Shown here in pieces: positions 1 through 6,642 of a stretch of 6,642 bases of DNA. The translations under genes and the position numbers were made by a program. The notes under the pieces are model-generated. The model ran no database searches. It had not been told where the DNA came from and was given only the letters and a program-made list of their open reading frames with translations. Within the stretch, counting starts at the first letter, position 1; the number at the start of each line of letters is the position of its first letter. The stretch lies in assembly GCA_016839845.1 (NCBI GenBank), contig JAEOTL010000215.1:1-6642 (forward strand), in the 5' to 3' direction. Origin of the DNA: Promethearchaeota archaeon (lineage in GTDB: Archaea; Asgardarchaeota; Lokiarchaeia; Sigynarchaeales; SOKP01).

Positions 1-1655
1 CCTATTATCAAGCCTATTTTTTCAGAAATTTTAACAGCCAAGTTATCAGGTTCTAGTTTGCTTAATGATTGAATCTTTCTTAGAGCTTCTACTTGACAAC
101 CAAGAGCAACTACAACTGCACTTTTTATTTCTTCATCTTTTATTAAATCTCTACAAATTGATAAGGTAGGAGATAAAGCATATTTAGAAGATGCAAAATT
201 CTTTAGTTGATCAGGATCTTTCACTATGGTAGGAATAGGCTTCCAGTTCTCGTCCCTTCCATTTACTACTACTGCGTCAAAAATTTTCTTTTCTAAACAG
301 AATTTTAAAAGAGCTGTTGTAAACCCTCCACTTTGAGCTCTATTTAATATTTCAGGATCACTTGATCTAGATTGGAAGACTTCAATTTTAGGTCCAAAAT
401 CTATATCATCAATTTTATGTGAAAAGTTTTGAGGGAGAAGTGTTGTTCTAGGACAGACCGTTATACATAAACCACAATTAACACAACCCTTTCTCGGAAC
501 AGCTCTTTCAGATTCCATAGATATGCAATCTGAAGGGCAGACAGCCGCACACATTCCACAACCACTACAAAGATCCATTCTTTGAAGCCAAGATGTATTG
601 TAGTTAAGAAAGAGCTTGCATTCACCACATAAGTTTTCATCGATATCAGCAACTAATCTAATATCTTTTTTGTCAGCAAGTTCATTTAATTTCCTTATTG
701 ACAATCCAGAAAAATCAGAAATTCTTTCATAACTTTTTCTTTTCATGTAGACCTCTAAATCATTAAGCATGTTTTGCACAACTGATGTTGTACTAAGAAT
801 CGAAGAGGTACAAACCCCAACAGCCTTAGCTCCCGCTAAAAATCTTTCAATTGCATCTTTTCCATCCATTATCCCTCCAATGCCTATTATAGGGATATTT
901 ACTGATCTGGCTAACTCAATTGTACACCCTACCGCAAACTCTCTTAGTGCAGCACCTGAAACTGCACCAAGACCAGGATATCCTAGCTTTGGTTCACCCG
1001 TCTCAATATCCAATGATGTACTGTATCCAATAGCATCAGTGATGCATACTGCAGCTGCACCTGATTTTTCAGCGGCTTTAGCTAATTCGATTGTATCATT
1101 AGGGGATATCGAAACAGCTCGACCACTAAACTTAACTATTACCTCCATATCAGCAGCTTTTCTAATAGTTGTTATAACTTGAGGTAATGTTTCTCCTTTA
1201 TCCGCAGGGAATCCAGCAGCCCACATAACAGGACATCCTCCAGAACCTGCAATTTCTATGAAATTAATTCCAGCAGAATATAGTGTTTTTACAATACGAA
1301 TTATATCTTCTTCTTTATCGTTAGTCCATGGAGGTGAAGTAGGAAAGTAAACATTTGCAATTATTGGAATATCTCCTTCTTTAGCAATTTTTAATTCCTT
1401 ATCTACCCATCTCTCAAGGGTGAATTCTGAAGCAGCATCAGTATTTAGTATACTATTGGCAGTTTTTGATATGAATCTACTAAATGGCTCAAAAGGCTCT
1501 TTGATTATTGTTTTGGTTGTAGCAGCCCCCCATCCTGCCTCTCCTGCTAGCTTTATGTGTTCCCCAGTGCGAGTGGTTGGACCGGCTTCGAGAATGAAAG
1601 GATTTTTAAGTTCTAATTTTCCAATTTTTACTGATAAATCAACCATTCTACTCAA
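1..1655 (-). CDS. DHODH/PreA-like dehydrogenase fused to 2[4Fe-4S] ferredoxin and FrhB-like domain (3' partial)
   Basis: One uninterrupted frame of 551 codons runs off the left edge, so the C-terminus is missing. Residues about 5-305 form an FMN TIM barrel of the dihydroorotate/dihydropyrimidine dehydrogenase class. Visible signs are NPFILEAGP near the start, the TKT lysine (K48), a CP motif with C141, VKFS (K175), and the phosphate-binding GIGGI at 258-262 followed by a LAGAKAVGV segment. Residues 363-402 hold two CxxCxxCxxxCP clusters (C363, 366, 369, 373 and C391, 394, 397, 401). From about residue 425 the protein resembles FrhB/FdhB, with SGGFTTALL at 442, SKYALSP at 490 and GCQVEALRK at 519. 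The likely role is a cytoplasmic flavo-iron-sulfur oxidoreductase passing electrons from FMN through the ferredoxin to a flavin/F420 site. The substrate is unknown. The TTG start at 1655 is preferred over ATG at 1646 because GGGAGG lies 5 nt before the TTG but 14 nt before the ATG. Confidence 0.88.
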   Translation of the reverse strand, partial: MSRMVDLSVKIGKLELKNPFILEAGPTTRTGEHIKLAGEAGWGAATTKTIIKEPFEPFSRFISKTANSILNTDAASEFTLERWVDKELKIAKEGDIPIIANVYFPTSPPWTNDKEEDIIRIVKTLYSAGINFIEIAGSGGCPVMWAAGFPADKGETLPQVITTIRKAADMEVIVKFSGRAVSISPNDTIELAKAAEKSGAAAVCITDAIGYSTSLDIETGEPKLGYPGLGAVSGAALREFAVGCTIELARSVNIPIIGIGGIMDGKDAIERFLAGAKAVGVCTSSILSTTSVVQNMLNDLEVYMKRKSYERISDFSGLSIRKLNELADKKDIRLVADIDENLCGECKLFLNYNTSWLQRMDLCSGCGMCAAVCPSDCISMESERAVPRKGCVNCGLCITVCPRTTLLPQNFSHKIDDIDFGPKIEVFQSRSSDPEILNRAQSGGFTTALLKFCLEKKIFDAVVVNGRDENWKPIPTIVKDPDQLKNFASSKYALSPTLSICRDLIKDEEIKSAVVVALGCQVEALRKIQSLSKLEPDNLAVKISEKIGLII

Positions 1656-1660
1656 ATTAA

Positions 1661-1666
1661 CCTCCC
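1661..1666 (-). promoter_or_regulatory. Strong Shine-Dalgarno of the fusion dehydrogenase
   Basis: GGGAGG on the minus strand ends 5 nt before the TTG at 1655. The match is strong and its spacing decides the start: the in-frame ATG at 1646 would be 14 nt away, longer than usual. Initiation at TTG adds three residues (M-S-R) before that methionine. Confidence 0.7.
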
Positions 1667-1704
1667 TTTTTTACAACGTATAAATGTTTTCACACAATGT
1701 TTGT

Positions 1705-1716
1705 CACATATTTAAT
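1705..1716 (-). promoter_or_regulatory. Candidate TATA box for the fusion dehydrogenase
   Basis: On the minus strand this reads ATTAAATATGTG. Archaeal initiation about 25-27 nt downstream would fall near 1685, giving a leader of about 30 nt that contains the GGGAGG ribosome-binding site. A second AT-rich match (CATTTATACG, 1686-1677) is closer to the gene, but its transcript would begin at about the start codon and exclude the strong Shine-Dalgarno, so I prefer the distal box. This is an inference from spacing only. Confidence 0.4.
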
Positions 1717-1743
1717 CATTGAATAATTTAACTATGTTTAAAC

Positions 1744-1754
1744 TTACATATATG
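1744..1754 (+). promoter_or_regulatory. Candidate TATA box for dphB
   Basis: TTACATATATG is centred about 29 nt before the ATG at 1779. Transcription would then start at or just before the start codon, giving a leaderless or nearly leaderless mRNA. No Shine-Dalgarno-like sequence precedes the ATG, which agrees with this. Together with the minus-strand box at 1705-1716 it makes the 1656-1778 interval a divergent promoter region. Confidence 0.5.
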
Positions 1755-1778
1755 CAAGACAATTTCTAGAAAGATTAA

Positions 1779-2828
1779 ATGTGCCCTATATTTTTTATTG
1801 GACTGGGACTACATATAAACGGTATATCTAAAATTGGGCAAGAGATTGCAAATAATTCTGATTTTATTTACTTAGATGCCTACACAAGTCCACTATCTAA
1901 ACAAGATATTTCCTCAATTCAAAAATTAATCAAGAAGAACGTCAAAATAATTAATAGAGAATTTTTAGAAGACAGTAGAACTATTTTAAATCAAGCAAAG
2001 CAAAATGATGTATCTTTACTGGTTTATGGAGATCCAATGATAGCTACAACCCATACTGAGATCAGAATCAGAGCAGAAAGAAGTGGAATAAAAACAAGAA
2101 TTATTCATAACTCATCAATACTAAGTGCCTTGTCTGGAGAAACAGGTCTCCATGCCTATAATTTCGGAAAACCTGTAACTATTACAAACTCAGCTTCTAC
2201 ACCCAAAATTACTGCCTATGAAGTTATCTATCAGAACCTTATAAGAAACCTTCATACAATAGTTCTTCTTGAGTACGATTACTCTAATAATTTTTTCGTT
2301 AGTCCCAACCAAGGTTTGGAATCTTTACTAAAGACAGAACAAGATCTAAAATATGGAATTTTCGATTTTGATACCTTTATTATAGTTGCATCTAGGATAG
2401 GAAACCATCAATCTATGAAGGGAGGAAAACTACTAGGATTGCTTAAAAAAAATTTTGGGGAACCCCCCCATACTGTGATTATCCCTGGAAAACTCCATTT
2501 TACTGAAGTTGACTCTTTGAAAACAATTCTGAAAATTAATGGAAAAGATATTTCAGATAATTCATTAAAAGCTAAACCTATTGGATTTACAATGGTCAAT
2601 AAATATGTTAAAAACGCAAGAGATGCACTTTCAAAGGCCAGATCTAAGGGTGAACAAGAAGGAAAGATCCATTTAGAAAATCTTTTCGAAAATGTGGATT
2701 GTTATCTGTCAGACGCTGAAAGATTTCTAAATCAAGGAAAATATGAATTAGCAATATTAAGTATAGGTTACGCTGAAGGACTTCTAGACGCTCTTAGGTT
2801 TATTGGAGAGTTAGAAATTAGATGGTAA
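1779..2828 (+). CDS. dphB: Diphthine synthase (DphB) with C-terminal DUF357-like domain
   Basis: This is the SAM-dependent methyltransferase of diphthamide biosynthesis. It methylates the modified histidine of archaeal elongation factor 2 in the cytoplasm. The N-terminus (FFIGLGLH, residues 5-12) is the family's first strand and loop. GDPMIATTH at 84-92 is the cofactor-binding motif. SSILSA at 112-117, GLHAYNFGKPVTI at 123-135 and PHTVIIPGKLHF at 230-241 are also hallmark segments. DphB is usually about 265 residues, while this protein has 349. The extra 75-80 residues are helical and include a stretch of the DUF357 type (YLSDAERFLNQGKYELAI, 309-326, then YAEGLLDALRFIG), so I read it as a fusion. 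The start has no Shine-Dalgarno and is probably leaderless. ribL follows 54 nt downstream on the same strand, so co-transcription is possible. Confidence 0.92.
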   Translation: MCPIFFIGLGLHINGISKIGQEIANNSDFIYLDAYTSPLSKQDISSIQKLIKKNVKIINREFLEDSRTILNQAKQNDVSLLVYGDPMIATTHTEIRIRAERSGIKTRIIHNSSILSALSGETGLHAYNFGKPVTITNSASTPKITAYEVIYQNLIRNLHTIVLLEYDYSNNFFVSPNQGLESLLKTEQDLKYGIFDFDTFIIVASRIGNHQSMKGGKLLGLLKKNFGEPPHTVIIPGKLHFTEVDSLKTILKINGKDISDNSLKAKPIGFTMVNKYVKNARDALSKARSKGEQEGKIHLENLFENVDCYLSDAERFLNQGKYELAILSIGYAEGLLDALRFIGELEIRW

Positions 2829-2844
2829 TTAAGAATAGAAATGT

Positions 2845-2854
2845 CTTTTAAGTT
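2845..2854 (+). promoter_or_regulatory. Weak TATA-like box before ribL
   Basis: CTTTTAAGTT lies about 34 nt before the ATG at 2883, in the 54-nt gap after dphB. It could give ribL its own start of transcription near 2875. The match is weak, and read-through from dphB is equally possible. Confidence 0.25.
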
Positions 2855-2882
2855 GAATTAGTTTGAAGCTGTCACGAGAAAT

Positions 2883-3524
2883 ATGAACACCCAAAACACC
2901 TCATCGCTTAAAAAGAAATTAATCAATGCGATATACTGTAACAGTATTCTTGGATTAAAAAATGATAATGGTCAATTAGCTCAAATATTGAATGTCAACC
3001 AACAAACCATAAAAGATTTGGGCAAATTGATGGAAAAACAGGGCTTAATATCAAAAAGCTATGATACTCGCTGTCTTACCCCCAAAGGCAGATCTAAAAT
3101 AAAAGTTGTATTAACGGGAGGTGTTTTTGATATAATCCATCCAGGTCATATTTTCGTGTTAAAATCTGCGAAGAAACTTGGGGATTTCTTGATAGTTGTT
3201 ATTGCAACAGATAAAAATACAAAAAGAAACAAGGGCCGAAATCCTTTGAATAGGGAAAATCAAAGACTAGAACTTGTGAAATCACTGAAGATGGTAGATC
3301 TAGCAATCATTGGTAGAGAAGGAAAAATTATGGATATAGTATTAAAAATTAGACCTAATATAATAACTCTAGGATATGATCAGAAACATGATGAATCTGC
3401 TTTACTGAAAGAATCCCAATTAAGGGGAATGTCGATAAAGTTCGTAAGACTTGGAACAATGATGCCTAACATCAAAAGTTCTGAAATCATTAAAAATAAT
3501 GCTCATATAATTGAAGAGTTTTAA
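2883..3524 (+). CDS. ribL: Archaeal FAD synthase (RibL-type nucleotidyltransferase) with N-terminal winged helix
   Basis: Residues about 74-205 are a cytidylyltransferase-fold domain of the RibL/TagD kind. The first strand runs into GGVFDIIHPGH, with the catalytic HxGH at 86-89. Other signs are ATDKNTKR at 108-115, NRENQRLELVKSL at 123-135, GYDQ at 164-167 (GPDQ in the Methanocaldococcus enzyme, from memory) and a KSSEII segment at 198-203. RibL transfers AMP from ATP to FMN to make FAD. Residues 1-73 are an added winged helix-turn-helix: the helices fall around GQLAQILNVNQQTIKDLGKL, and LTPKGR (65-70) is the usual wing ending. Stand-alone RibL is about 150 residues, and this protein has 213. 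The catalytic domain has no cysteine, whereas two C-terminal cysteines were reported to matter in Methanocaldococcus RibL. A different nucleotidyltransferase substrate therefore cannot be excluded. No clear Shine-Dalgarno precedes the ATG. Confidence 0.8.
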   Translation: MNTQNTSSLKKKLINAIYCNSILGLKNDNGQLAQILNVNQQTIKDLGKLMEKQGLISKSYDTRCLTPKGRSKIKVVLTGGVFDIIHPGHIFVLKSAKKLGDFLIVVIATDKNTKRNKGRNPLNRENQRLELVKSLKMVDLAIIGREGKIMDIVLKIRPNIITLGYDQKHDESALLKESQLRGMSIKFVRLGTMMPNIKSSEIIKNNAHIIEEF

Positions 3525-3606
3525 ACTCATTAAATAAAAACAAAAACTTTTACTTTAACCAAATTTCTTAAAAATAATATCTCAGATTTATTCAACTTAC
3601 ATTAAA
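3525..3606. other. Convergent AT-rich intergenic gap
   Basis: These 82 nt lie between the 3' ends of ribL (plus) and endonuclease V (minus). The plus strand has short T-rich stretches (ACTTTTACTTTAA, AATTTCTT) that could help archaeal transcription stop. There is no convincing hairpin or long T-run, so I do not call a defined terminator. Confidence 0.35.
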
Positions 3607-4265
3607 TTAATTAATAAAATCAACTTTCTTTTGGATCAATTTTGATAATTTATGAGCCTCCTTAAGTGTCATTAGAGAATATATATAATCAGATCTTATG
3701 AAATTTTCCAAATTATCTATCGTTATTTTATGTCCAGGACTGAGATAATAAATTTTTTTAGAATCTTTAAATGCTATACCAACGATAGAACCATTAATCT
3801 CAATAAAAGCTACTTCTTTATTAAATGAATTTATTTTACCAACAAGAAGAGATTTAGCAACGCCAATTGTAGGTGTATCCAAAACCAAACCAACAAAAAC
3901 TGCTAAACCAGCCCTTCGTGGGTGGGCTATCCCATGGCCATCTACTAATATTAGATCCGGTTTTATGGAAAGAGATTCCACTGACCCCATCACGATAGGC
4001 CCTTCTCTTATAAACAAATAATTAGGAATATATGGAAATGAACAGAAACCAGTAAATTTAGAAACCTCTATTATTTTATTAGTAGAAAAATTCCATAAAA
4101 CCGAAACACCTGTTGCCCTATCACGATTATAAGAAACATCAACTCCGCAAACAAAATTTACATTTTTAAAATCTAAAGGCTCGAGTTTATGACTATCCGC
4201 GATTTTTTGCTGAATTTTAGATAAAAAATTAAGTAAGATTTTATCTAACCCATCTACACCATCAT
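3607..4265 (-). CDS. nfi: Endonuclease V, catalytic residues intact, start codon/frame problem
   Basis: Endonuclease V cleaves at the second phosphodiester 3' of deaminated bases such as hypoxanthine/inosine, in DNA and in some organisms RNA. The open frame contains all family motifs: GVDVSY, the strand-separating PYIP wedge, FIREGP, LVDGHGIAHPRR, GVAKSLLVG and LSPGHK. The three metal-binding acids are present (D in GVDVSY, E in REGP, D in LVDG). The frame is open from 4296 to 3607 but has no ATG, GTG or TTG before a TTG at 4017, which lies inside the protein and would drop the first catalytic Asp and the PYIP wedge. Two tandem ATGs at 4265 and 4262 lie 5 nt after the translin stop but in another frame. 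One extra G after them would give a 219-residue protein beginning MMGVDG, with the acids at 43, 88 and 109, as in Thermotoga EndoV (43, 89, 110). The likely cause is a missing base or a real frameshift. A start at ATC 4239 or ATT 4215 is the alternative. Confidence 0.85.
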
Positions 4266-4270
4266 ATAAT

Positions 4271-4903
4271 TTATTCTTTGGTAGGAACTTTTCTTTTTAT
4301 ATCCCCAATAGTTTTTATTAATTCTGCTCTTCTAATTTCTTCGGTAATTGTTGATCTTACGTCTTCAAGTGAATACCTTGCTACATCTAATTTCCTTTTA
4401 ATTCCGTGAATTACATTATCATAGACTATCAGAGGAGACAACAAAATATACAATTTTTCCATTAAACTGAATAAGGAGGAAGCTTGCTTCGTTTTGCCAT
4501 TTCTTATACTATCATATATTCGTCTTTTTACTTCTCCTATGACATCTAGTATGCCCAAGATATACGCAGAATTACTCACATTAAGATCCTTCCTTGAAGG
4601 CATGGATTTATTATATGCAATGGCATACAATACAGATGCCTCAACATATTCAGTTTCTGGTTGGATCAGATATTTTTTTAAATCATTAATACTTTGACCT
4701 TTTAACTTCTTAAGAAGAGACTGTACTTTCTTTAAAAGCAATTCTGCCTCCTTAGGATTCGATAAATGAACATTCATAATAGCTTTGGCTGAAAAGGAAA
4801 TAACATCTCTTGATTCTTTTAAAAGCTTTTCGCGTTTTATGAGTACTTTTTCTAATTCAATAGTAATATCAGATAAAGAGTTCTCAATACGATTTAACTT
4901 CAT
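4271..4903 (-). CDS. Translin-family protein (archaeal translin/TRAX-like)
   Basis: This 210-residue, nearly all-helical protein belongs to the translin family. Members bind single-stranded nucleic acid and, in the eukaryotic C3PO and archaeal TRAX-like octamers, act as RNases. Family landmarks are KREKLLKESRDVI at 23-35, an ETEYVEA segment at 83-89, YILGILDVIGEVKRR at 114-128 (the family's Y-x-x-G-x-x-D-x-x-G-E-x-x-R block), MEKLY near 148 and the GIKRKLDVAR segment at 167-176. E85, E88 and D120 occupy positions resembling the acidic residues of the TRAX active site, so nuclease activity is plausible but unproven. The ATG at 4903 is the first start after an in-frame TGA, and a TATA-like box sits about 26 nt upstream, suggesting a leaderless mRNA. 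The stop lies 5 nt before the tandem ATGs of endonuclease V, so the two genes probably form one operon. Confidence 0.85.
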   Translation of the reverse strand: MKLNRIENSLSDITIELEKVLIKREKLLKESRDVISFSAKAIMNVHLSNPKEAELLLKKVQSLLKKLKGQSINDLKKYLIQPETEYVEASVLYAIAYNKSMPSRKDLNVSNSAYILGILDVIGEVKRRIYDSIRNGKTKQASSLFSLMEKLYILLSPLIVYDNVIHGIKRKLDVARYSLEDVRSTITEEIRRAELIKTIGDIKRKVPTKE

Positions 4904-4923
4904 AAAATCTAATCATAACTAGT

Positions 4924-4935
4924 CAATAAAATAGG
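4924..4935 (-). promoter_or_regulatory. Candidate TATA box for the translin-endonuclease V operon
   Basis: CCTATTTTATTG on the minus strand is centred about 26 nt before the ATG at 4903. This is the spacing expected if transcription begins at the start codon, as proposed for dphB. No Shine-Dalgarno directly precedes the ATG. A GGAGGGAG further upstream (about 4953-4946) is too distant to serve it. Confidence 0.5.
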
Positions 4936-5036
4936 TTTTGATTAACTCCCTCCATAAATTTTATCAATATAACACTTGTCTATTCTTTTTTAGATTATTT
5001 TATTAGAATAATATACATTGAACTACTAAACACCCA

Positions 5037-6464
5037 TCATTTTGGTTGTAATGATCTGGATAATGCATTTAAGCCCTCGATTATCTCTCGATATCTTTGT
5101 ATGTTACTCAATAAAATATTGAATCTGTAACGGCTGCTTATGGTTTTAACAAATTGATTTACTATGAACTTTTTACGAAGATAAAATTCTCTAAAATATT
5201 TATTTACAGTTGATCCTATTACTTCGATGGGAATTGATGAAAATTCAGACATCCCTATACCAGTTTCCCAATATTTCTCAACATTTAATCCCCGATTATC
5301 CATTTCATTCCAAAGATCAGTACCTGGGAATATATCAAGAAGATTAAACTGAGCAACATCTATATCTAATTGTTGAGCAAAATTCATGGTATTTCTTATT
5401 TCTTCTATAGTTTCATCAGGCGCTCCTACAATAAATGAGCCTACTATGATATCTATACCAGCTTTTCTGGTTTTTTGTACTGCTTCTTTTGTTTGTTGAG
5501 GTGTTATCCTTTTATTATAGTATTCAAGAATTCTTTGATTTGCACTTTCAATACCAAAATATACAAGCTTACAACCAGATTTTGCCATCTCTCTCATCAT
5601 GTCATATGTACATCTATCCACACGTGAATCGCAGAACCATTCAATATCTATTTTTTCTTTCTTTATCTTTTTGCATAGTTCTGAAGTTCTTTTTTGGTTA
5701 AGAGTAAAATTATCATCAACAAATAGGACTTGCTTATATCCTTGGTCTTCAACCATTCTCATTTCATCAATAATAGAATTAACAGATCTACCCCTCCAAA
5801 TGTTATGTAAAAATTTATTACATCCACAAAATCTACATTGAAATGAACAACCTCTTGATGATAGCATGGTCGTAAATTTTTTAGGAGCTACAACTATTCC
5901 AGAAATCATAGAATGATATTCACAACTAAGTAAATTACGATCAGGAAAAGGATATTGATCTATATTTTTAAGTAAAGGCTTTTCTGGCGTTGAAACTATT
6001 CTATCATTTTGTCTAAACACAATCCCCATGACATTATTTAATTTTCCTCCTTTCTCTAAACAATTGACTAATTCTAAAGTAGTATGTTCCCCCTCCCCCT
6101 TCACTATTGCATCTACACAATCATATTTTCCTAGTATCCTCTCAGAGTTAAAGGAAGCATGCATATTTCCAAAGACGACAAAAAGGTTAGGGTTTTCCTT
6201 TTTAGCCATTTGAGCTATTTTAACAGCTGTTTGTGCGGAATTAGTAAGGACTGAAAAACCTAGAATATCCGTATTTTCTTTTTTAATCCAACTCACCGTT
6301 TCATTTAAATTCAAATCAACAGCTGCATGATCAAGAATTGAAACCTTAACTCCATATTTTTTTAAAAAAGACGCAATATAAAGAATTCCAGTAGGAGGCC
6401 AAGAAGCCCGTGCTGTTGTAAATCCAATTTCATAAGGCGAAGGATGAATTAAAGAAACTTTCAT
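5037..6464 (-). CDS. B12-binding-type radical SAM protein of unknown substrate
   Basis: Residues 1-140 form a Rossmann-type cobalamin-binding-like domain: KVSLIHPSP at the start, PPTGILYIASFLKKYG at 23-38, ILGFSVLT at 67-74, FGNMHASF at 98-105, and a KGEGE segment at 122-126 that closes the domain as in BchE-like enzymes. The radical SAM domain follows, with the cluster motif CSFQCRFC (C206, C210, C213). It continues through VDDNFT (249-254), a YFGIESANQRIL segment at 302-313 and the SAM-barrel strand with VGAPDET at 346-352. The enzyme should bind a [4Fe-4S] cluster and SAM and use radical chemistry, possibly C-methylation or ring/bond formation. The substrate cannot be read from sequence. 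Cobalamin use is uncertain because no DxHxxG motif is visible. The usual GGxH is GNMH here. The ATG at 6464 follows an AAAGGT Shine-Dalgarno embedded in a perfect palindrome. The gene appears monocistronic, as a 133-nt gap separates it from translin. Confidence 0.87.
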   Translation of the reverse strand: MKVSLIHPSPYEIGFTTARASWPPTGILYIASFLKKYGVKVSILDHAAVDLNLNETVSWIKKENTDILGFSVLTNSAQTAVKIAQMAKKENPNLFVVFGNMHASFNSERILGKYDCVDAIVKGEGEHTTLELVNCLEKGGKLNNVMGIVFRQNDRIVSTPEKPLLKNIDQYPFPDRNLLSCEYHSMISGIVVAPKKFTTMLSSRGCSFQCRFCGCNKFLHNIWRGRSVNSIIDEMRMVEDQGYKQVLFVDDNFTLNQKRTSELCKKIKKEKIDIEWFCDSRVDRCTYDMMREMAKSGCKLVYFGIESANQRILEYYNKRITPQQTKEAVQKTRKAGIDIIVGSFIVGAPDETIEEIRNTMNFAQQLDIDVAQFNLLDIFPGTDLWNEMDNRGLNVEKYWETGIGMSEFSSIPIEVIGSTVNKYFREFYLRKKFIVNQFVKTISSRYRFNILLSNIQRYREIIEGLNALSRSLQPK

Positions 6465-6479
6465 TACCTTTGAAAGGTA
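6465..6479. promoter_or_regulatory. Perfect 15-bp palindrome over the radical SAM gene's ribosome-binding site
   Basis: TACCTTT and AAAGGTA arms of 7 bp flank a single central base, and the element directly abuts the ATG at 6464. On the minus strand its right arm is the probable Shine-Dalgarno (AAAGGT). It could be a repressor operator at the start of the message, or an RNA hairpin (6-bp stem, 3-nt loop) hiding the ribosome-binding site. The symmetry is seen directly and the function is inferred. Confidence 0.5.
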
Positions 6480-6499
6480 TTAAAATTTAGTTATTAAGG

Positions 6500-6508
6500 A
6501 TTTAAGTA
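6500..6508 (-). promoter_or_regulatory. Candidate TATA box for the radical SAM gene
   Basis: TACTTAAAT on the minus strand lies about 40 nt before the ATG at 6464. Initiation near 6478 would give a leader of about 14 nt that begins at the palindrome and includes the AAAGG ribosome-binding site. A closer TAAATTTTA (6489-6481) is an alternative, but it would leave the start codon too near. Confidence 0.3.
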
Positions 6509-6563
6509 CATAAATCTATGATAAATCCAAAATTATTAGTGTAAAATCCAAATCAATTTATAA

Positions 6564-6636
6564 TGGACCGGGAGGGATTTGAACCCCCGACCTCCTGAGT
6601 GCAAGTCAGGCATTACTACCGCTGAACTACCGGCCC
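6564..6636 (-). tRNA. tRNA-Ala (anticodon UGC)
   Basis: The minus strand folds into a complete cloverleaf of 73 nt including discriminator A. The acceptor stem GGGCCGG pairs with CCGGTCC and contains the G3-U70 wobble that is the main alanine identity element. The anticodon stem CCTGA/TCAGG is perfect, with loop CTTGCAC and anticodon UGC at 6603-6601. The variable loop is 5 nt. The T-arm is GGGGG-TTCAAAT-CCCTC. CCA is not encoded, so it must be added after transcription. The D-arm is slightly irregular: GTTC faces GTAAT with either a bulged U or a C-U mismatch. No intron is seen. The gene's promoter would lie beyond the right edge. Confidence 0.96.
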
Positions 6637-6642
6637 AAATTA

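Follow-up and report, generated by a model that had tools for sequence, protein, structure and literature searches.

In silico analysis of a stretch of 6,642 nucleotides from a Promethearchaeota archaeon (contig JAEOTL010000215.1, positions 1 to 6,642, here called the window) confirmed that a gene at its left end encodes a single polypeptide combining a flavin mononucleotide (FMN) barrel, an iron-sulfur domain and an FrhB module. Our best reading of this fusion protein, which falls slightly short of an even chance, is that of an iron-sulfur flavoenzyme made as one chain, in which a reductase of the PydA/UacX type is wired to coenzyme F420. The gene is read on the minus strand in a frame that is open from position 3 to 1655 (551 codons as counted mechanically) and unbroken from the left window edge, its likely start being the ATG at 1646; as the gene is cut at that edge, the first 548 of approximately 739 codons (3..1646) are visible, and intact homologues are found in the proteins P0001 and P0002. 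Three Pfam families were matched in this one frame, all over their gathering scores, namely DHO_dh (2e-26, residues 7-302), Fer4 (2.6e-5) and FrhB_FdhB_N (PF04422; 9.1e-21, residues 427-500), which bears out the claim of an earlier note on this DNA that a barrel of the dihydroorotate dehydrogenase (DHODH) type, a ferredoxin and an FrhB-like domain follow one another without a break, and the last of these matches likewise upholds its assignment to FrhB. The barrel of the DHO_dh family occupies residues 1-316 (699..1646, minus strand, as are all coordinates of this gene) and is followed by a linker with a CxxC motif (C340 and C343; 618..629), by the 2[4Fe-4S] ferredoxin domain with its eight cysteines (residues 358-402; 441..575, delimited by Pfam and alignment) and by the visible part of the FrhB module (residues 417-548; 3..398, with FrhB_FdhB_N at 156-377).

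The 3′ part missing from the window is known from the close homologue P0001 and not from the window's own contig. P0001 (739 amino acids, four member sequences) is 96% identical over 99% of the query, and in it FrhB_FdhB_C (PF04432) is matched at residues 510-665 (3.9e-29), with ferredoxin-type matches at 694-736; an FrhB C-terminal domain beyond the left edge, as the earlier note had expected, is thus present in this homologue. The second fusion, P0002 (749 amino acids), aligns end to end with the P0001-type fusion at 40% identity and has the same domains in the same order, and no Pyr_redox match indicative of an NAD(P)H partner inside the fusion was found at E ≤ 0.001 in either protein. Common to both are the eight central 2[4Fe-4S] cysteines, the linker CxxC and the four FrhB cluster cysteines C517, C552, C611 and C614, which match the cluster ligands Cys104/134/192/195 of FrhB (PMC3591093); the codon of C517 lies at 96..98 and those of the other three past the window edge. 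Both fusions also keep a C-terminal set of cysteines, CxxxC...CxxCxxCxxxC (C695, C699, C719, C722, C725 and C729). By the usual two-cluster ferredoxin pattern, this set completes one cluster and is without the first two cysteines of the first motif, and the linker CxxC and the C-terminal cysteines could complete each other as a split second ferredoxin. The predicted model is unreliable at residues 331-350 and 691-710 (predicted local distance difference test, pLDDT, 37-41), and matches in the PDB cover residues 1-328 and 345-695, with the C-terminal tail outside. The one central 2[4Fe-4S] domain stands where a ferredoxin follows a PydA-type barrel and equally where a ferredoxin precedes FrhB, and its profile scores (53.4 and 49.2 bits for FrhB-type profiles, 43.4 and 45.1 bits for DHODH-type profiles) do not decide its parentage.

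The FrhB module is recognised over the gathering scores of both its Pfam families (22 for PF04422 and 23.3 for PF04432) in P0001 (74.9 and 101.9) as well as in P0002 (45 and 122.9). The top-ranking FrhB-type chains in the PDB carry the names of F420 enzymes, and 7-hydroxymethyl chlorophyll a reductase (HCAR), an FrhB relative that uses ferredoxin, is approximately 34 orders of magnitude weaker in E-value. In agreement with the earlier note, the module sits in the role of PreT, or of the flavin adenine dinucleotide (FAD)/NADPH part of dihydropyrimidine dehydrogenase (DPD), and the solved structures nearest to it are modules that reduce F420. FrhB-type modules couple, or are thought to couple, sulfite reductase, carbon monoxide dehydrogenase (CODH), Fwd, glutamate synthase and others to F420, and those of the sulfite reductase Fsr and of a CODH subunit bear an N-terminal ferredoxin (PMC10229431, PMC11493965, PMC9012536). 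Circumstantial support comes from CofD, a marker of F420 synthesis, which was detected in 34 of 40 chosen genomes (33 above the cut-off), among them G588 and G328, the genomes nearest to the window by its diphthine synthase, Dph5; a control search run alongside gave a match in 6 of 14 genomes, in three of them above the cut-off.

In a pairwise alignment with pig DPD the catalytic C671 lies opposite C138 of the fusion (codon at 1233..1235, numbered from the ATG at 1646), N736 opposite D204 (1035..1037) and T737 opposite A205, and an alanine beside a gap is found opposite N668. Variants of C671 are named in titles of PDB entries for DPD, and N668, N736 and T737 presumably hold the pyrimidine. 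C138 is invariant in P0002, D204 and A205 are the same in P0001 and P0002, and Cys-Pro is also kept together with Asp for Asn in proteins of the DHODH-Fer4 type, for example P0003, P0006-P0008 and P0011-P0020 among the rows listed. Neither a plain PyrD nor a plain PreA was accepted as an identity for the barrel, as curated cut-offs were missed: the PreA model NF006183 (cut-off 335 bits) gave 130.1 bits with P0001, 133.6 with the window ORF (open reading frame) and 165.8 with P0002, the PyrD model TIGR01037 (cut-off 270 bits) gave 139.7 and 168.7 with P0001 and P0002, and a second curated PyrD cut-off was also missed (95.7 vs 330). In a tree of 92 rows P0001 and P0002 were joined at 100/98 and stood, with weak support (88/69), beside a group of 34 DHODH-Fer4 rows, PyrD-like rows and Escherichia coli PreA being placed elsewhere. 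The likeness to PreA drawn in the earlier note therefore does not extend to PreA proper, given the low model score, the replacement of N736 and T737 of DPD and the weakly supported separation from E. coli PreA; by sequence comparison, the whole barrel is no closer to DPD than to PyrD.

SsnA-like genes recur in the neighbourhood of unfused relatives. In the archaeal phylum of G236 (28 genomes) an SsnA-like gene lies directly beside the DHODH-Fer4 gene in 17 of the 19 loci read, L103 and L113 being the exceptions; when a 280-residue part of SsnA from E. coli was compared with these neighbours by BLAST, identities were 24-36%. For the one in L088 the best NCBIfam model is SsnA (407.9 bits vs a cut-off of 444), and the one in L093 was profiled by Pfam only. 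Of 348 genomes from the Clostridium acidisoli phylum, 13 gave a match at E ≤ 1e-70, with Xdh-like genes in 11 and SsnA-like genes in 7 of these 13 loci. Just one of the 13, L151, is close to the sister group of the fusions (E 3e-199, 60% identity to P0003), and its gene adjoins an SsnA-like gene (2.7e-80, 270 bits, below the cut-off), with YgeW-like and Xdh-like genes nearby. An archaeal member of the sister group (L103, 6774-7976) has carbamoyltransferase, amidohydrolase, amino acid permease, indolepyruvate-type oxidoreductase and MtmB-like genes near it, a neighbourhood that resembles the L151 cluster. FrhB and DHODH genes share a contig, at a distance from each other, in L103 (approximately 5.5 kb), G710:C16 (L108/L109, approximately 20 kb) and L126 (approximately 7.4 kb, with a weak DHODH match). 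Among four loci profiled, an aldehyde:ferredoxin oxidoreductase gene (644-659 amino acids) stands beside the DHODH-Fer4 gene in L104, L105 and L117, and in L120 with a small ORF in between, a pairing that is not known to have been reported, no search aimed at it having been made.

It follows from the reports on YgfK and UacX (PMC12507026) and on PydAc (PMC7332683) that N-heterocycle reduction in this barrel family can draw on electron inputs that are exchanged for one another, and the same may hold for the fusion. We infer F420 as the donor, a reductive direction of electron flow and a heterocyclic class of substrate: the FAD of the FrhB module would receive a hydride from F420H2, and electrons would leave it singly, reaching the FMN of the barrel via the FrhB [4Fe-4S] cluster and then the two clusters of the 2[4Fe-4S] domain. 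An activated C=C or C=N bond would then be reduced by FMNH2, Cys138 serving as the proton donor. The substrate would most likely be an N-heterocycle other than uracil or orotate. The interpretation given in the earlier note is partly supported, and a number of observations weigh against the F420-coupled reductase. As regards the FrhB module, both fusions score far below the cut-off of 331.5 of the frhB equivalog TIGR03289 (150.9 for P0001 and 146.8 for P0002), and of 38 positions near-invariant in nine FrhB relatives P0001 keeps 27 and P0002 keeps 29. The KGK loop proposed for the F420 phosphate (164GKGK in M. marburgensis FrhB, equated here with TKGK of M. barkeri FrhB) is aligned with MPES in P0001 and is altered, with an insertion, in P0002; the same loop reads GEGK in 8riu_B and KKEG in 8rja_E, both from F420-reducing enzymes. 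No CofD match was obtained in 6 of the 40 chosen genomes, and no FrhB gene adjoined an unfused DHODH-Fer4 gene in the 40 loci read (L088-L127, 33 of them with a DHODH-type match), in which ORF picking can hide genes, as it hid the DHODH-Fer4 gene of L116. As regards the barrel, it alone matched dihydroorotate dehydrogenase B (PyrD chains) at 1.2e-18 and DPD at 2.9e-13, and in both fusions the PyrD-type models PRK07259 and TIGR01037 outscored PreA, all under their cut-offs; the fusions are moreover long branches of unsure placement whose sister relation in the tree is weak, model confidence is poor in the C138 loop (pLDDT 51-64), and most SsnA-adjacent archaeal DHODH-Fer4 proteins among the rows listed are, unlike the fusion, without the Cys and keep the Asn. 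The visible neighbour of the fusion gene, where an SsnA-type gene was sought, is dph5, the other side being past the window edge; as the two genes are divergent the window gives no operon context, and no operon partner is visible in it. Two findings place the F420-coupled reductase somewhat below an even chance and an oxidative enzyme, discussed below, slightly higher within the range of the unlikely: against PyrD the barrel scores no worse than against PreA or DPD, and the majority of the SsnA-adjacent relatives do not match the fusion at the two motif positions.

Instead of F420, ferredoxin or some other carrier might feed the FrhB flavin module, as in HCAR, and the protein would then be a more elaborate version of a ferredoxin-dependent, PydAc-like reductase. 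The closest barrels bear only a ferredoxin domain, like enzymes of the ferredoxin type, the extra C-terminal motif could dock ferredoxin and the proposed F420-phosphate loop is not conserved; the first-ranked FrhB-type PDB chains are, however, F420 enzymes by name, with HCAR far behind, and the genomes nearest by Dph5 encode CofD, and on balance we consider ferredoxin input unlikely. Electron flow in the opposite direction, with the fusion acting as an oxidase of a reduced, dihydroorotate- or dihydropyrimidine-like substrate and thus as an F420-reducing dehydrogenase, would agree with the closest FrhB relatives, 8riu and 8rja, which run F420-reducing (PMC11493965), and with the better fit of the barrel to PyrD chains and PyrD-type models, but is judged quite unlikely in light of the replaced pyrimidine-site residues of DPD (D204 and A205), the missed PyrD cut-offs (95.7 vs 330; 139.7 vs 270), the position of PyrD-like rows elsewhere in the tree and the fact that the described relatives with barrel and ferredoxin run as reductases.

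The two flavin-type domains, the central 2[4Fe-4S] domain and the cluster motif that both fusions keep separately at the C-terminus would also suit flavin-based bifurcation or confurcation, with a pair of flavins and a pair of ferredoxin modules linking both F420 and ferredoxin to a single substrate. The model is unreliable precisely where the extra motifs lie (331-350 and 691-710), and DPD, with comparable flavins and clusters, is not known to bifurcate, which makes such a mechanism improbable. There is similarly a slim chance that a two-flavin enzyme couples F420 and ferredoxin to the reductive dearomatisation of a heterocycle, with C340/C343, C695/C699 and C719-C729 forming the split second ferredoxin as a further ferredoxin port for confurcation or bifurcation. 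An assembly chimera or a misread junction might be suspected from a window that ends within the gene and from the recovery of only two protein clusters, but is scarcely credible and was rejected, together with a frameshift joining two genes, as two full-length proteins at 40% identity have the domain order and the linker cysteines in common and P0001 comprises four member sequences; the single continuous gene read in the earlier note accordingly stands.

At least two clusters of fusion proteins, P0001 and P0002, were obtained from three protein searches, and as two of these searches did not recover P0002 this count is a lower bound. A protein search with a two-row profile (E ≤ 1e-40) returned P0001 and P0121 among the matches listed; the latter (627 amino acids) joins FlpD (PF02662), a ferredoxin and the FrhB N and C domains, and is another FrhB fusion. 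Profile searches of 832 archaeal genomes (G001-G832), in part of which at most 2-5 candidates were scored per genome, yielded no match spanning both halves among the matches listed, and peptide patterns disclosed no further fusions in GTDB contigs, where the matches to eight relatives were confined to the barrel (25-29% identity), or in viral contigs (0 of 109 stretches). No description of a DHODH-FrhB fusion was found among the titles and abstract openings listed, and no paper in the PMC library searched names 'dihydroorotate dehydrogenase', F420 and FrhB together.

The remainder of the window encodes, on the plus strand, the diphthine synthase with a fused DUF357 tail (dph5, 1779-2828) and a cytidylyltransferase-like protein (2883-3524), in which Pfam leaves roughly the first 70 residues unmatched, a segment that could, as a guess, form a helix-turn-helix. 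Also present are an endonuclease V frame on the minus strand, listed mechanically as 3607-4017, a B12-binding radical SAM protein (5037-6464), a translin-like protein (4271-4903) and a tRNA-Ala. Full-length matches to Dph5-DUF357 were obtained at 39-47% identity in one genome set of the G280 phylum, the closest (47%) being those of G588 and G328 among 80 genomes that belong mostly to this phylum; in two other genome samples the Dph5 part reached at most 41% identity, short matches to DUF357 alone being set aside. Approximately 229 codons (3607-4296) are open in the endonuclease V frame, with the conserved N-terminal part present, and as the TTG at 4017 is its first ATG, GTG or TTG the start is unusual or lost.

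The nearest described parallels to the proposed F420-coupled reductase are PydAc and UacX, neither of which the earlier note considers. PydAc of Clostridium chromiireducens is a ferredoxin-dependent dihydropyrimidine dehydrogenase that reduces uracil and, like the fusion, has an FMN barrel and a ferredoxin domain without the FAD/NADPH part of PydA/DPD; it differs in having two ferredoxin domains (one in C. pasteurianum, where the second is in a separate ORF) and no FrhB (PMC7332683), whereas the fusion has changed pyrimidine-site residues and an FrhB module fused C-terminally. YgfK with NAD(P)H, together with SsnA, dearomatises and opens yanthine, UacX is a PF01180 barrel protein without the FAD part that probably uses ferredoxin, and an F420-dependent yanthine reductase from the unrelated luciferase family has been proposed in Chloroflexota (PMC12507026). 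The fusion resembles UacX, known here by description, in its barrel without the FAD part, and genes of its sister group can adjoin SsnA-, Xdh- and YgeW-like genes (L151); it differs in its FrhB module, described for neither UacX nor YgfK in the available passages, and in the proposed donor, YgfK taking NAD(P)H and UacX probably ferredoxin (PMC12507026). With E. coli PreTA and pig DPD it shares the FMN barrel with 2[4Fe-4S], the catalytic Cys and the DPD fold, but these have an NAD(P)H/FAD partner and the fusion reaches 130 against the PreA-model cut-off of 335. In the F420-dependent sulfite reductase Fsr, a ferredoxin and an FrhB-type F420H2 oxidase likewise feed a reductase domain within one polypeptide, with FrhB N-terminal to the siroheme reductase and not, as here, C-terminal to an FMN barrel (PMC10229431); a report on archaeal fusions mentions Fsr and no DHODH-FrhB fusion in the available passages (PMC11237513). 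The zeta subunit of the F420-reducing CODH and FwdI of Candidatus Ethanoperedens (8RIU, 8RJA) are separate subunits, while the FrhB module of the fusion is joined to its catalytic domain (PMC11493965). FrhB paralogues of anaerobic methanotrophic archaea (ANME), including F420-dependent glutamate synthase types, are tied to many oxidoreductases, with none linked to DHODH or DPD in the passages available (PMC9012536). The donors described for the PydA/UacX superfamily are NADPH, NADH and ferredoxin (PMC7332683, PMC12507026), and a built-in FrhB would add F420 within the fold, while the wiring of FrhB to F420 seen with hydrogenase, formate dehydrogenase, sulfite reductase, CODH, Fwd and glutamate synthase would be extended to barrel flavoenzymes. 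The fusion would thereby provide a single-gene target for F420-driven heterocycle reduction.
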